Below are positions 1-35,268 of a DNA stretch of 36,554 bases, piece after piece (the first letter of the stretch is position 1; every line of letters begins with the position of its first letter). This DNA comes from Actinomycetota bacterium. GTDB lineage: Bacteria > Actinomycetota > CADDZG01 > WHSQ01. Position numbers and translations under genes: made by a program. The notes under the pieces were generated by a model. It worked only from the letters and a program-made list of their open reading frames with translations. It was not told the origin of the DNA and did no database searches. Where the stretch lies: positions 1-36,554 of the forward strand of contig WHSQ01000030.1 of assembly GCA_009380005.1 (NCBI GenBank), read 5' to 3'.

Positions 1-48
1 GGCACGTGGCGTGTCCAACCGGACGAGGATCGTCGCCGCGGGAGAGCC
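1..48 (-). repeat. partial copy of dispersed repeat, inverted
   Basis: The reverse complement of these 48 bases is identical to positions 33309-33356, the first part of the tandem repeat downstream of lpd. The copy continues past the left edge of the window. Reading on the minus strand it begins 42 bases after the stop codon of the Mce-associated gene, so it has the same orientation and a similar distance to the upstream gene as the copy behind lpd. No coding potential is claimed. Confidence 0.9.
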
Positions 49-89
49 AGGCCGGCGGACGACGTGTGACAGCGGAGGGCGTTCGGGGG

Positions 90-638
90 TTAGGCCACTT
101 CGCCGGAGAGGATCTCGATCCGGTCGGCCTTCCACTCGTCACCGCTTCGGACGAGCGTCAACCGCACCAGGTACGTGAAGGTGCGGCCTTCCGGGTTCTC
201 GCCCGACCTGGTCGTCTGCTCGACGCTGGCCAGCGAAACCGCTCGCGACGCCGAGGCGAAGGTCACCTGGGGGCCCTGCAGGATCTTGCCCTCCGACGAT
301 GCGGAGGCTTCCGAGATGGCGTCGTTGAGGCCCCGGGTCACGATCTCTTCGTACTGTTCCCGGAAGTTGCCGGTCGAGATGGCGAGCATGTCGTCGATCA
401 CGCCTTCGAGCGTCTCGGCGTCGTAGTTCACGAGCAGGTCCAGGACCTCTTCGGATCGTTGTTCGACGCCGGGGGATTCCCGCTTCAGGTAGCCGGTGAC
501 GTCGGCGGCGGTCGGACCTTGGTCCCTGCCCAAGAAGAGCATCAGGGGCACGAGGATCGCGGCGGCGATCAGAGCCCAGACCACCGCGGTGATAGGGCGC
601 GGGCGGGCGCTTCGTGGTCCGGCGCCCTCGTCGCTCAT
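90..638 (-). CDS. Mce-associated membrane protein (second copy)
   Basis: This 182-residue protein has a basic, Pro-rich N-terminus, one transmembrane helix at about residues 16-37 and an extracytoplasmic alpha/beta domain. It resembles the other Mce-associated protein of this operon (1012-1560): both end in a strand ending GDEW/GGW-K followed by a short hydrophobic strand. Such proteins accompany mce operons and are thought to stabilise or assist the Mce transporter; the exact role is unknown. The start ATG at 638 was chosen over upstream in-frame codons because the MSDEG start sits 7 nt after a TACACT -10-like box (646-651, minus strand), which suggests a leaderless transcript separate from the main operon. 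It is the last gene before the repeat at 1-48. Confidence 0.75.
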   Translation of the reverse strand: MSDEGAGPRSARPRPITAVVWALIAAAILVPLMLFLGRDQGPTAADVTGYLKRESPGVEQRSEEVLDLLVNYDAETLEGVIDDMLAISTGNFREQYEEIVTRGLNDAISEASASSEGKILQGPQVTFASASRAVSLASVEQTTRSGENPEGRTFTYLVRLTLVRSGDEWKADRIEILSGEVA

Positions 639-645
639 GGGCGTG

Positions 646-651
646 AGTGTA
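646..651 (-). promoter_or_regulatory. putative leaderless -10 box of the second Mce-associated gene
   Basis: TACACT lies 7 nt before the ATG at 638, matching the TANNNT-N6/7-start pattern seen before eight other genes in this window. It would place transcription initiation at or next to the start codon. Confidence 0.4.
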
Positions 652-700
652 GGGCGGGGTGGGACCAGCAAGCTCGCCGCCGGTGCCGGCGTGGGACGCG

Positions 701-844
701 CTAGCCGGCGATCCGAACCGTGTCCGACACCCCCCACATGAACGATGAGAGCATCAGGTTCAGGACGTTGACGGCGAAGATGGCGGCTTTGATCAGCGTG
801 ATAGCGAACATGTTGCCCGTCTCGGTGACGAGACGTCCGACCAT
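701..844 (-). pseudogene. YrbE/MlaE C-terminal remnant (47 codons)
   Basis: The last 21 residues, beginning VLNLMLSSFMWG and ending DTVRIAG, match the C-terminus of the intact YrbEB in this window (VLNLFLSLLMWG...DTVSIAG) at 15 of 21 positions. Only the final membrane helix and tail of an MlaE-family permease remain; a full member has about 240-280 residues. The reading frame is open from an ATG at 844, which has an AGGAAGG ribosome-binding site about 8 nt upstream, so a 47-residue one-helix peptide could still be made. It sits between the two Mce-associated genes, after a 167-base gap (845-1011) that is unusual in an operon otherwise without gaps. It is most simply the scar of a lost second yrbE-mce block; a functional micropeptide is the alternative. 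Confidence 0.65.
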
Positions 845-1011
845 CCGACGATCCTTCCTGGGAGCCTGACGTGCGCATCCGGGTGACGCCGCCACGCCTA
901 TCGATCTATGCCATCGTCTATCGACCCAGGCTCATCGTTCCTCGCTCCGAAAGCAAGGGCCATCGCCGGAAATGCTGAGGCCGGTGGGGTGGGCGGGTTG
1001 CCGGAGGTGCG

Positions 1012-6281: not shown

Positions 6282-7396
6282 CACTCACCTCCCTGCAAAA
6301 CGAACCCGATGAACGAGCCGAGGTCTTGCGAGGTGGAGGGGCCGGAGGTCTGCGAACCGCCGGAGCTCCCACCGCCGGGCCCTCCGCCCGAATCGCCGTG
6401 TTGGTTGTCGGTTTCTTCGACGGTCTGGATCGTCGAGCTGTTGCGGTCGCGCACCAGGAGCTTGGTGATGCGGACGTTGAACCACTCACCCCAGCTCGTG
6501 GTCTGGAAGTAGCCGGCGACTCCGAGAGGAAGGGTCCGCAGGGTGCGCCTCAGATGCTTCCTGTTCTCGGACAGCGTGCCGGCCACCGTGTCGAGGTCGC
6601 GCAGCGACGAATCGATGTTCCCCCGACTGCGCGTCAGGACGTTATCCAGCTGCTCCTGGACGACGGCGAAGTTCTCCACGAGGCTGTTGATGTCGTCGGT
6701 ATCGCCGGCGAGGTCGGTGCTGAGCTGCTGCAGGTTATCGATGAACGCGCCGATCTGATCGTCCTGGTTCGCATAGGCCGCCATGATCGTGTCCGCCGAC
6801 TCGAGCAGGCGTGAGATGTCTTCGTCGTTGGCGCCCAGCTCCTCGGCCAGAACCGCTCCGCTATCGAAGAGGCGGCGGACGGTCTGCTCGTTGCCGACCA
6901 GGGCGGTGTTGATCGCGTCGACGAAAGCGTTGGCCTTCTCCGGATGGATCGCCTGGAGGATGGGGCCCGCCCGGTTCAGGAATTCGCCGATGTCGGCCGG
7001 GGGCCGGGTCTGTTCGGCCGGGACGAGGTCCTCCTCCTCGTAGAAGGGCTTCTCTTCGCCCGGGTACACGTAGATGAAGCGTTGGCCGACGACGTTGCGC
7101 CACCGGATGCCGACCGAGGAGTCCCTGCCGAGCTTCACGTCCCGGTCGATGTTGAAGCTGACGATCGCCTTCCCGTCCTCTACCCGGGTGCTCTCCACCC
7201 GGCCCACGTCGACGCCGGCGACCTTGACGGCATCACCCTTTAGCACGCCGAGCGCGTCGTCGAACTGCGCCTCGAGCACGTAGGTGTCGCTGAAGAGGCG
7301 GGAGTTGGCGAGCTTCACGCCCAGCCCCACCGTCATCAGCACGGCGATGACGGTGAAAGCGATCACCTTGACGAAGATGCGCATCGTTATCTTCAT
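6281..7396 (-). CDS. mceB: Mce family protein MceB
   Basis: A 371-residue Mce protein with a membrane anchor at about 5-28, an MlaD domain at about 37-113 including the GVDVGRVE strand typical of the family, a helical region at about 130-290, and a Gly/Ser-rich linker-like tail (about 325-360). It begins at ATG 7396, overlapping the TGA of mceA by 4 nt. Six different Mce proteins are expected to assemble into one heterohexameric periplasmic tube. Confidence 0.9.
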   Translation of the reverse strand: MKITMRIFVKVIAFTVIAVLMTVGLGVKLANSRLFSDTYVLEAQFDDALGVLKGDAVKVAGVDVGRVESTRVEDGKAIVSFNIDRDVKLGRDSSVGIRWRNVVGQRFIYVYPGEEKPFYEEEDLVPAEQTRPPADIGEFLNRAGPILQAIHPEKANAFVDAINTALVGNEQTVRRLFDSGAVLAEELGANDEDISRLLESADTIMAAYANQDDQIGAFIDNLQQLSTDLAGDTDDINSLVENFAVVQEQLDNVLTRSRGNIDSSLRDLDTVAGTLSENRKHLRRTLRTLPLGVAGYFQTTSWGEWFNVRITKLLVRDRNSSTIQTVEETDNQHGDSGGGPGGGSSGGSQTSGPSTSQDLGSFIGFVLQGGE

Positions 7397-31836: not shown

Positions 31837-33249
31837 ATGGCCGATCGGTTCGACGTCGTGATCCTCGGCGGTGGCAACGCCGGGTATTCGTTCGCGTTCA
31901 GGGCCGCCGCGCTCGGCATGAGCGTCGCCATGGTCGAGAAGGACAAGGTCGGTGGAACCTGTCTCCACCGCGGATGCATCCCGACCAAGGCTCTGCTTCA
32001 TGCGGCCGACCTGGTGGACGAGATCAAAGGGGCCGGCGAGTTCGGCATCCTGACCCACGAGCCCGACGTCGACTGGGGCAAGGTCCAGGGCTTCAAGGAA
32101 AGCGTGGTCGCACGCATGTACCGAGGCGTGTCCGGGCTCGTGAAGAAGAACAAGGTCGAGCTCGTCGAGGGCGAGGGCCGGCTGACGGACGCTAAGACCA
32201 TCATCGTCTCGACGGGTGACGGCGAACGCACGCTCTCGGCAGAGCGCGGCGTGGTGCTGGCTCCGGGCAGCATCCCGCGCGAGCTGCCGTTCATCGAGTC
32301 CAACGGGAACAGGATCCACAACTCCGACCACGGGCTCGAGGCCAAGGACATCCCCTCGTCCGTGATCGTGGTCGGCGGCAACTACATCGGGCTGGAGTTC
32401 GCCAGCATGTACCGGTCGTTCGGCGTCGAGGTGCAGGTCGTAGAGATGCTGCCCAAGATCGCGCCGGCGGAGGACGACGACATCTCCGAGGCTCTCTACC
32501 GGGTCCTGCAGAAGCGCGGGATCAAGTTCCACCTCGGCGTGACGGTGACGGGAGCGCAGGAGACGGACCAGGGCGTGGAGGTCACGTTCGAGAAGGAGGG
32601 CGAGAACAAGACCCTCAGCGCCGAGCGCATGTTCGTGGCCATCGGACGCGCCCCGCGGACCGAGGGCATCGGGCTCGAAGAGGTGGGCGTCGCCACGGAT
32701 CGCGGTTTCATCACGACGACCTCGAACTTCAAGACCAGCGTGGACGGCGTCTTCGCGATCGGCGACGCGGTGTTCATCCCGGACGCCGATTGGCCCCACC
32801 CGCAGCTCGCACACGTGGCCTTCATCGAAGGCATCACCCTGGCCGAGCACATCGCCGGACAGGAGACGCCGCCGGTGGACTACAAGAACATCCCTCACGT
32901 CATCTATTGCCAGCCGGAGGTCGCATCCGTCGGGCTCACCGAGGGGAAGGCCAAGGATCTCGGCATGGACGTGACGTCGAAGCGTTACCCGTTCTCGGCG
33001 AACGCTCGAGCGCTCATGCTGGGCGGCGGCCAGGGCTTCGTGAAGACGGTCGCGGAGAAGGACGGTGCCGTCGTCGGCGTGCACATCGTCGGGCCGCGCG
33101 CGTCGGATCTGATCTCCGAAGCGATGCTGGCGACGACGTGGGAGGCGTACCCGTCCGAGCTCGCCGCGCTGATCCATCCGCACCCGACGCTGTCCGAGGT
33201 CGTCGGCGAGACCTTCCTGGAGCTGGCCGGCAAACCCCTGCACGGCTAA
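31837..33249 (+). CDS. lpd: dihydrolipoyl dehydrogenase (E3)
   Basis: A 470-residue flavoprotein disulfide reductase. The FAD motif GGGNAG (11-16), the redox disulfide GGTCLHRGCIPTK (C42, C47), the NAD-domain motif VVGGNYIGLEF and the C-terminal His-Glu pair (H449, E454 in HPHPTLSE) are all present. It reoxidises dihydrolipoamide of 2-oxoacid dehydrogenase E2 subunits. The NAD motif has Asn where Gly is common (GGNYIG). GGAGG lies 6 nt before the ATG. It precedes the E2, lipB and E1 genes, with a repeat-filled gap of 495 bases in between. Confidence 0.93.
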   Translation: MADRFDVVILGGGNAGYSFAFRAAALGMSVAMVEKDKVGGTCLHRGCIPTKALLHAADLVDEIKGAGEFGILTHEPDVDWGKVQGFKESVVARMYRGVSGLVKKNKVELVEGEGRLTDAKTIIVSTGDGERTLSAERGVVLAPGSIPRELPFIESNGNRIHNSDHGLEAKDIPSSVIVVGGNYIGLEFASMYRSFGVEVQVVEMLPKIAPAEDDDISEALYRVLQKRGIKFHLGVTVTGAQETDQGVEVTFEKEGENKTLSAERMFVAIGRAPRTEGIGLEEVGVATDRGFITTTSNFKTSVDGVFAIGDAVFIPDADWPHPQLAHVAFIEGITLAEHIAGQETPPVDYKNIPHVIYCQPEVASVGLTEGKAKDLGMDVTSKRYPFSANARALMLGGGQGFVKTVAEKDGAVVGVHIVGPRASDLISEAMLATTWEAYPSELAALIHPHPTLSEVVGETFLELAGKPLHG

Positions 33250-33280
33250 CGGATTCGCGCGGCTAACCGACCCGCGCGGC

Positions 33281-33305
33281 CCCGCTCCCGCGGCCACCGA
33301 GCGGG
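33281..33305 (+). terminator. GC-rich stem-loop after lpd
   Basis: CCCGCTC (33281-33287) pairs with GAGCGGG (33299-33305). An alternative pairing of GACCCGC (33269-33275) with GCGGGTC (33301-33307) overlaps it. No T-run follows. It ends just before the first repeat copy and may terminate or stabilise the lpd transcript. Confidence 0.4.
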
Positions 33306-33308
33306 TCA

Positions 33309-33624
33309 GGCTCTCCCGCGGCGACGATCCTCGTCCGGTTGGACACGCCACGTGCCGCACAGCTTCGCCGTGCGGAACTTCGCTCCGTCCGGGGCGCGGC
33401 CTGCGGCGGCGCCCCTCCCGAGATCCCCCGGACGAGAACCGCCGCCGCCTGGGGGCTCAGGATCGGGCCTGACTCTCCCGCGGCGACGATCCTCGTCCGG
33501 TTGGACACGCCACGTGCGGCACAGCTTCGCCGTGCGGAACTTCGCTCCGTCCGGGGCGCGGCCTGCGGCGGCACCCCTCCCGAGGTCCCCCGGACGAGAA
33601 CCGCCGCCGCCTGGGGGTTCAGGA
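33309..33624 (+). repeat. 162-bp structured repeat, two tandem copies
   Basis: Copy 1 starts at 33309-33311 and copy 2 at 33473; the period is 162 bp and I count 4-5 mismatches over about 150 bases. Each copy has the inverted repeats CTCGTCCGG (33330-33338; 33492-33500) and CCGGACGAG (33428-33436; 33590-33598) near its ends. These enclose a CCGCAC/GTGCGG hairpin in copy 1 and a GTCCGGGG/CCCCGGAC hairpin. The first 48 bases recur inverted at 1-48. The frames across it are compositionally open in several phases and are not genes. The rest of the 33250-33744 gap holds the lpd stem-loop and the E2 leader. Confidence 0.9.
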
Positions 33625-33744
33625 GCCGGCGCGAGCGAAGCGGTGGCGCGCGTGGGGGGCGGTAGTCTGGGGCATTCCAACGCGATCCCTATGGGTGGGG
33701 TTCGTTACCTCGCCGCCTAGATCTCGAAGGGGAGGTTTGGCCGC

Positions 33745-35268
33745 ATGGCGACCGAGATCAAGATGCCTCAACTCGGCGAGAGCGTCGTCGAGGGCACGAT
33801 CACGAAGTGGTTGAAACAAGAAGGTGACACGATCGAGGAGGACGAGCTCCTCGTCGAGATATCCACCGACAAGGTCGACTCGGAGGTCCCCTCGTCGACC
33901 GCCGGAACCCTTCAGAAGATCCTCGTCCCGGAAGGCGAGACCGTGAAGGTGGGCACGCCCATCGCCATGGTCGGGGAGGCCGGCGAAGCGGCTGCGGAGG
34001 AAGACGGCGGCGAGACCGAGGCCGAAGAGAAGCCGGCCGCCGAAGCCGAGGCGGAAGAGGCTCCGAAGGGGCAGGCTCCCGCCGAGGAGGCCGAGACCGG
34101 CGAGGCCGCCGTCGCGGAAGCCGAGCGCAACCAGGCCGAGGCCGGGGGCACCGAACAGGCGCAGGGCGATGGTGTTCAGCCGTCGGGGGAAGCCGAGGAG
34201 GAGGCGCCCAAGACTGCAGCGAAGCCCGAGGGCAAACCATCGCAGAAGCCGTCCGAGGCCAAGCGTCCCGGCGGCAAGCCCGGCGATACATCGAAGCGCG
34301 GGATCATCTCGCCGTTGGTGCGTCGTCTCGCCGACGAGCACGGCGTCGACCTCGACCAGATCGACGGCACCGGGACGGGTGGCCGGATCCGCAAACAGGA
34401 CGTCCTGAAGTTCGTGGAGTCGGGCAAGGGCAAGACGCAGGCTCGGCCCGCGGCCTCCGCGGAGGAAGCGCCTCAGCCGGAGGAGAAGCCGGCTGCCGAG
34501 CGCGAGGCGGCGCCCGGCCGGGCCGAACCTTCGGTCACGTCGGCCGGTGGACGCGAGGAGCTCGTGCCGTGGACGAACATCCGCCGCCGCACGGCCGAGC
34601 ACATGGTCGCCGCACACCTGGAATCGGCCCGGGCATGGAACGCGGTCGAAGCCGACTGGACGCACATCGTCAAGCTCCGGTCGAGCGTGAAGGATGCGTT
34701 CAAGCAGCGTGAGGGCTTCAGCCTGACATACATGCCGTTCCTGGCCCGAACGCTGTGCGACACGTTGCTGGAGATGCCGGAGGTCAACGCGGCCTACAGC
34801 GAGGAGCAGCAGGGGAACATCGTCAAGCACTACGTGAACCTGGGGATCGCGGTCGCGCTCGAGGGAGGCGGTCTGATAGTCCCCGTCATCAAGGGAGCGG
34901 ACGAGAAGAACCTGGTCGGTCTCGCTCGGGCGATCAATGATGTCGCGACGCGGGCCAGGACCAAGAAGCTGTCGCCGGACGACCTGACCGGCAGCACGTT
35001 CACGATCACCAATCCGGGGCCGTTCGGCTCGATCATCTCCGTGCCGATCATCCCCAGAGGGACCACGGCGATCCTCGGGTTCGAGGCGATCGAGAAGCGC
35101 GTGGTCGTGGGAGATGACGATTCGATCGCCATCCGCAGCATGGGCTTCCTGTCGATGTCATGGGATCACCGCGCTATCGACGGAGCGGAAGCCGCTAGAT
35201 TCCTCGCGCGGCTACGCGAACGCATCGCCAGCAGTGATTACTCGGCCGAGCTAGCCCAATACGCGTAG
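33745..35268 (+). CDS. bkdC: 2-oxoacid dehydrogenase E2 (probably branched-chain type)
   Basis: A 507-residue dihydrolipoyl acyltransferase. One lipoyl domain (about 2-76) has the lipoylated K43 in EISTDKVDSEV. A very long Ala/Glu/Pro linker (about 77-195) precedes the E3/E1-binding domain (about 196-232, ISPLVRRLADEHGVDLDQI). The catalytic domain (about 275-507) ends with SMSWDHRAIDG (H475, D479). It transfers the acyl group from E1 to CoA. The neighbouring E1-alpha looks like the branched-chain type, so BkdC/DBT is the best assignment; SucB-like proteins share the architecture. GGAGG lies 9 nt before the ATG. LipB begins directly after the stop. Confidence 0.87.
   Translation: MATEIKMPQLGESVVEGTITKWLKQEGDTIEEDELLVEISTDKVDSEVPSSTAGTLQKILVPEGETVKVGTPIAMVGEAGEAAAEEDGGETEAEEKPAAEAEAEEAPKGQAPAEEAETGEAAVAEAERNQAEAGGTEQAQGDGVQPSGEAEEEAPKTAAKPEGKPSQKPSEAKRPGGKPGDTSKRGIISPLVRRLADEHGVDLDQIDGTGTGGRIRKQDVLKFVESGKGKTQARPAASAEEAPQPEEKPAAEREAAPGRAEPSVTSAGGREELVPWTNIRRRTAEHMVAAHLESARAWNAVEADWTHIVKLRSSVKDAFKQREGFSLTYMPFLARTLCDTLLEMPEVNAAYSEEQQGNIVKHYVNLGIAVALEGGGLIVPVIKGADEKNLVGLARAINDVATRARTKKLSPDDLTGSTFTITNPGPFGSIISVPIIPRGTTAILGFEAIEKRVVVGDDDSIAIRSMGFLSMSWDHRAIDGAEAARFLARLRERIASSDYSAELAQYA

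Follow-up and report, generated by a model that had tools for sequence, protein, structure and literature searches.

A probable MITE-type palindromic repeat family, mostly behind stop codons and present as a tandem pair behind lpd, in an actinobacterial genome

The gap between lpd and the E2 gene in the window (the whole stretch of DNA that was analysed, 36,554 nt) carries two direct tandem copies of a palindromic repeat, here named family A. This family is probably a lineage-restricted, non-autonomous repeat of the MITE type, an imperfect palindrome located mostly behind gene stops, which was then duplicated in tandem at lpd. Four properties fit the MITE-like reading: the length of the repeat, its palindromic structure, the near identity of copies found in unrelated neighbourhoods, and its narrow range.

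The two units, each 162 nt long, are arranged head-to-tail and are 95% identical; a BLAST search of the genome with one unit recovers the second at an E-value of 2.7e-69, in agreement with the first-pass annotation, which had described two nearly identical 162-bp units. That annotation also had the pair filling the gap between lpd and E2, which is not the case: the lpd stop lies at 33249 and the E2 start at 33745, and an outer motif at 33280-33299 belongs with the pair too. The lpd gene (31837-33249) encodes Pyr_redox_2 and dimerisation domains according to Pfam, and the E2 gene (33745-35268) lipoyl, E3-binding and acyltransferase domains. The G+C content reaches 75% across the tandem pair, compared to 66% for the whole window. 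The family A features of the window are as follows.

33280..33299, + strand: outer motif, common to other family A copies and to a second repeat family, B
33299..33460, + strand: repeat unit 1 (family A), 162-nt period, left end near 33304 when compared with other copies
33318..33338, + strand: left palindrome arm of unit 1, in an 86% complementary pair with the right arm
~33354..33376, + strand: inner hairpin 1 of unit 1 (equivalent in unit 2 at ~33516-33538)
~33391..33415, + strand: inner hairpin 2 of unit 1 (equivalent in unit 2 at 33553-33577)
33428..33448, + strand: right palindrome arm of unit 1
33461..33622, + strand: repeat unit 2 (family A), extending from near 33466 to near 33627 when compared with other copies
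33480..33500, + strand: left palindrome arm of unit 2
33590..33610, + strand: right palindrome arm of unit 2
1..56, - strand: another family A copy following the stop of ORF 90-878 (-), truncated at the contig end to its left half

Each unit folds as an imperfect palindrome, in which 21-nt arms (86% complementary) surround two inner hairpins. The arms start ~14 nt inside the unit ends, and the pairing of the outermost bases is imperfect. The 9-bp inverted repeats and inner hairpins noticed at first pass are both present, the former as a perfect pair, CTCGTCCGG/CCGGACGAG, at 33330/33428 in unit 1 and 33492/33590 in unit 2; instead of lying near the ends, as had been proposed, this pair sits ~30 nt inside them, within the 21-nt arms. 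Comparison of copies places the left end of family A at GGCCTGGCTCTCC, that is at 33304 and 33466 in the window, and the left ends of the copies concur on GGCCTGGCTCTCCCGCGGCG. The right end lies near GGGGGYTCAGGAG, the boundaries being uncertain by some bases. The length of the repeat is therefore 162 nt as judged by the tandem period and ~160 nt by copy comparison.

Units 1 and 2 differ at five of 149 aligned core columns, and with this level of divergence an assembly artefact is an unlikely source of the tandem. Among the five complete copies of the genome, only these two units possess an A at alignment column 63. This private substitution points to a local duplication, at lpd, of one inserted copy. 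Unit 2 and the copy of contig C222 have a common right end as well as ~20 nt beyond it.

The first-pass annotation had suggested a search of the whole genome (3.8 Mb in 639 contigs, scored 100% complete) with the unit. This search uncovers nine copies dispersed over eight places, so that the refuting outcome named at first pass, a unit present here only, is not observed. Five of the copies are complete and four truncated by a contig end:

The two units of the window, complete
C222:75087-75247, complete
C333:73140-73293, complete
C210:14440-14588, complete
Both ends of C22, each cut by the contig end
Start of C399, cut by the contig end
Start of C233, cut by the contig end, corresponding to the beginning of the window

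Unit 1 is 94-97% identical to the other four complete copies. A 21-nt core pattern, searched with up to three mismatches, yields nine matches in the genome, whereas its reversed control yields none. Each of the four truncated copies is a left half; a query with the right half returns the five complete copies as its only strong matches, and no right half is found at contig ends.

All eight places are intergenic. At six of them, the left end lies 8-79 nt behind a stop codon of the same direction: 54 nt for lpd, 79 nt for a BFN_dom gene, 36 nt for nadA, 21 nt for a small zinc-ribbon-like ORF, 8 nt for a 115-amino-acid ORF and 36 nt for ORF 90-878 of the window. For three of the genes preceding these six left ends, either no Pfam family is assigned or the assessment was by eye only. 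At the two exceptions, which are intergenic too, the left end points towards a NAGPA gene start (C333) or towards rpsL (start of C22). Since intergenic spacers adjoining stops are common, the placement behind stop codons is an apparent tendency. The genes flanking the complete copies are unrelated to each other: BFN_dom/MerR, 3HCDH/NAGPA, nadA/LysM-SLT and lpd/E2. To note, the contig of the window starts inside a family A copy (1-56, - strand), and MlaD/Mce4_CUP1 genes are located beyond ORF 90-878 (-).

The proposal that the unit is a small non-autonomous element and not decayed coding DNA is supported by these eight intergenic places. Pfam analysis of the four ORFs across the repeat returns no match, and the C222 copy contains frame-shifting single-base insertions, although the GC-rich core is free of stops in all six frames in all five complete copies. 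Decayed coding DNA is rejected in view of this absence of Pfam matches together with the near identity of copies in unrelated neighbourhoods. No known RNA family is recognised either, Rfam 15 yielding no match in the window at the gathering score.

Regarding its origin, family A would have reached no fewer than eight sites between genes, for the most part shortly after stop codons, at positions that tolerate insertions; its palindromic ends would have been the substrate of a transposase supplied in trans. Once inserted at lpd, the unit would have been duplicated in tandem. The first-pass annotation had suggested that the repeat may set transcript ends; the folded RNA might at most modulate the 3' ends of adjacent transcripts. 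A target-site duplication is typical of MITEs, and none is seen here: wherever complete copies lie (four places), the longest common flank words are 5-6 nt long and stand at non-matching offsets, with copy boundaries uncertain by some bases. This stands against the MITE reading, as do the low copy number, the imperfect terminal inverted repeats and the absence of any match to PF01797 (Y1/RAYT transposases) in the genome, PF01797 being the only transposase family searched; the same profile matches in five of 14 control genomes.

MITEs are described in the relevant part of PMC3733652 as 70-300 bp long, with 15-30 bp terminal inverted repeats and no coding capacity, and family A falls within this length range by both estimates. 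It is alike in size to ERIC/RU-1 (127 bp), RU-2 (168 bp) and the MITEs RUP, NEMIS, Bcr1 and Nezha, and shares with ERIC/RU and other bacterial MITEs a palindromic fold, the lack of a recognisable gene and dispersed intergenic places, the likeness to all of these being one of description (PMC2759123 and PMC3733652, in the parts that describe them). It differs from them by its low copy number, by showing no target-site duplication and by having no known mobilising element.

A second palindromic repeat bears on how family A dispersed. Outside the left end, the copies of lpd, C210 and C222 carry CCCCGCTCCC, as does, in a less clear form, the one at the C22 end; in C210 and C222, an approximate complement of this left outer motif is also found on the right side. 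The outer motif (33280-33299) has 22 matches in the genome with up to three mismatches, against five for the reversed control, and it leads to family B, a palindromic repeat of ~123 nt (for instance at C222:6411-6532). Family B gives 11 matches at E ≤0.01, of which five cover at least two thirds of the query, the remaining six being partial or consisting of the outer motif alone. Family B copies are also located at contig ends. Mosaics of both families exist: the B copy at C22:53135 bears an A-like right end, while a tenth, mosaic A copy (C455:19512-19701) assembles an exact left end of A followed by a B repeat, the segment in between reading as an inverted and shortened inner part of A. About 26 nt of the left flank of this mosaic are common to the copy at the window start. 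Moreover, the rpoC contig ends within a B copy, with Ns between rpoC and the contig end, and the rpsL contig begins within an A copy. As rpoC and rpsL are generally neighbouring genes, we infer a mixed A/B site between them. The A/B mosaics suggest another route of dispersal, in which GC-rich hairpins between genes may have recombined or undergone gene conversion.

A host regulatory element, in which a palindrome is retained downstream of genes because it terminates transcripts or protects their 3' ends and in which copies spread as 3' regions recombine with each other, is an unlikely alternative to the MITE-type repeat. It would account for the stop codon just upstream of the repeat at six of the eight places and for the strong fold of the minus strand. 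Folding of the unit, a check proposed at first pass, was compared with dinucleotide shuffles: for unit 1 RNA, the minus strand reaches -100.7 kcal/mol (z -4.1), while the plus strand, at -85 kcal/mol, is only weakly better than its shuffles (z -1.6); the plus strand folded as DNA has a z of -1.3. In the relative L020, moreover, the 75% identical lpd gene is followed at ~6430-6465 by an apparent intrinsic terminator, identified by eye, where the species of the window has the repeat instead; a transcript end behind lpd would thus be normal. The repeat itself, however, contains no intrinsic T-tract terminator by simple scan, two of the eight places have their left end in front of genes, and none of the relatives searched has a copy. 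Covariation does not argue for a conserved RNA either: on the plus (mRNA) strand, a single pair is changed on both sides, which is equalled by 202 of 500 shuffles, and on the minus strand no pair is changed on both sides. Covariation as RNA proof is thus unsupported.

The difference between the strands raises another alternative, improbable in our view, in which the minus strand is the working strand and is recognised when folded, either as RNA or as DNA, as in strand-specific recombination or IS200/IS605-type transposition. Besides the z-scores (-4.1 versus -1.6), this would be consistent with the 136-nt core, where seven variable pairs persist as wobbles on the minus strand of every copy, while no variable pair is maintained throughout on the plus strand. 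This asymmetry of the core pairs is a hint only, coming from five sequences: the minus strand loses three other variable pairs, those of the outer stem (alignment columns 8-12) are in most cases maintained on the plus strand, and family B is devoid of such a bias. Furthermore, no Y1 transposase (PF01797) is found in the genome. The integron attC site is also an imperfect palindrome behind a gene stop whose bottom strand folds better, with RYYYAAC and GTTRRRY cores at its ends. Family A resembles it in its position behind stops and in the better fold of the minus strand, but RYYYAAC is missing, the GTTRRRY match is internal, and no cassette array is present; of the two attC-type core sites, only one therefore exists, and not at an end. 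On these features, family A does not qualify as an attC site.

Slightly less probable still is a longer mobile element, in which the left arms at contig ends would face each other around an unbinned transposon, the 162-nt unit being a deletion product. Both the four cut copies, all left halves, and the right-half query, with its five complete copies as sole strong matches, would fit such an element; yet four left halves out of four may arise by chance (1 in 16, one-sided) or from assembler breakage, and no element body is seen. The least probable proposal combines several of these features: a strand-specific mobile palindrome, its folded minus strand recognised by some enzyme, would swap cores and ends with family B and prefer sites behind stops, and would amount to a mobile module of gene 3' ends distinct from the REP/RAYT systems.

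The MITE-type family A may also be compared with other bacterial repeats. The MIRUs of mycobacteria are intergenic repeats of 40-100 bp that can adjoin stop codons in direct tandem. Family A is likewise actinobacterial and intergenic, with a direct tandem by a stop, whereas MIRUs are not known to have such a palindrome. The first-pass likening to REP/BIME sequences holds loosely: family A is extragenic and palindromic, as are REPs, REPINs and BIMEs, and tandem clusters of near-identical units have been reported for REPINs (PMC3116915, in the portion dealing with them). Length, orientation, end tags and transposase argue against membership. A REP measures 20-40 bp, so that family A, at ~160 nt, is 4-8 times longer; the GTAG tag of REPs and REPINs is absent from its ends, the one GTAG at 33662 lying outside the units, and CGTC occurs internally only, never as an unpaired end. 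BIMEs alternate REPs in orientation, whereas units 1 and 2 are head-to-tail. No RAYT transposase is found in this genome with PF01797, although CGTC-type REPs without it are reported in the corresponding section of PMC3733652. On these features, family A belongs neither to the REP/RAYT nor to the BIME class.

The search of related genomes, also proposed at first pass, returns no family A copy in 60 relatives by BLAST, among the best candidates (up to 13 per genome), nor in 40 relatives with a covariance model built on the five complete copies, among the best 81 of up to 5587 candidates; diverged copies could escape both searches. Four of the 60 relatives give BLAST matches of 29-37 nt, some resembling coding sequence, around which no such palindrome is recognisable, and these are treated as chance. 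With three mismatches, the core pattern has single matches in two of 23 other genomes, against three of 23 for the reversed control, and no match to family A is found in the plasmids, phages or viral contigs searched. Family A thus appears lineage-restricted within the genomes searched, among which there is no second genome of the same genus. Among named records, the nearest lpd proteins, from MAGs of an uncultured actinobacterium and an Actinomycetota bacterium, are 75% and 74% identical. The lpd-E2 spacing varies widely among relatives, so that no clean empty site is obtained at lpd. For family B, short and weak matches are found in 13 of 40 relatives.

Family A looks like an addition, unnamed as far as searched, to the known class of small intergenic palindromic repeats; the literature searched provides no name for it, which does not establish its absence from print. 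It represents a repeat of actinobacteria that have been little sampled. For this lineage, the REP survey PMC3733652, in the part covered, lists no tagged REPs, while mentioning untagged REP-like sequences in M. tuberculosis. If family A moves, a MITE-like element would be added to this lineage without tagged REPs in that part of the survey. The A and B copies at contig ends also help to explain the break-up of the genome in assembly.
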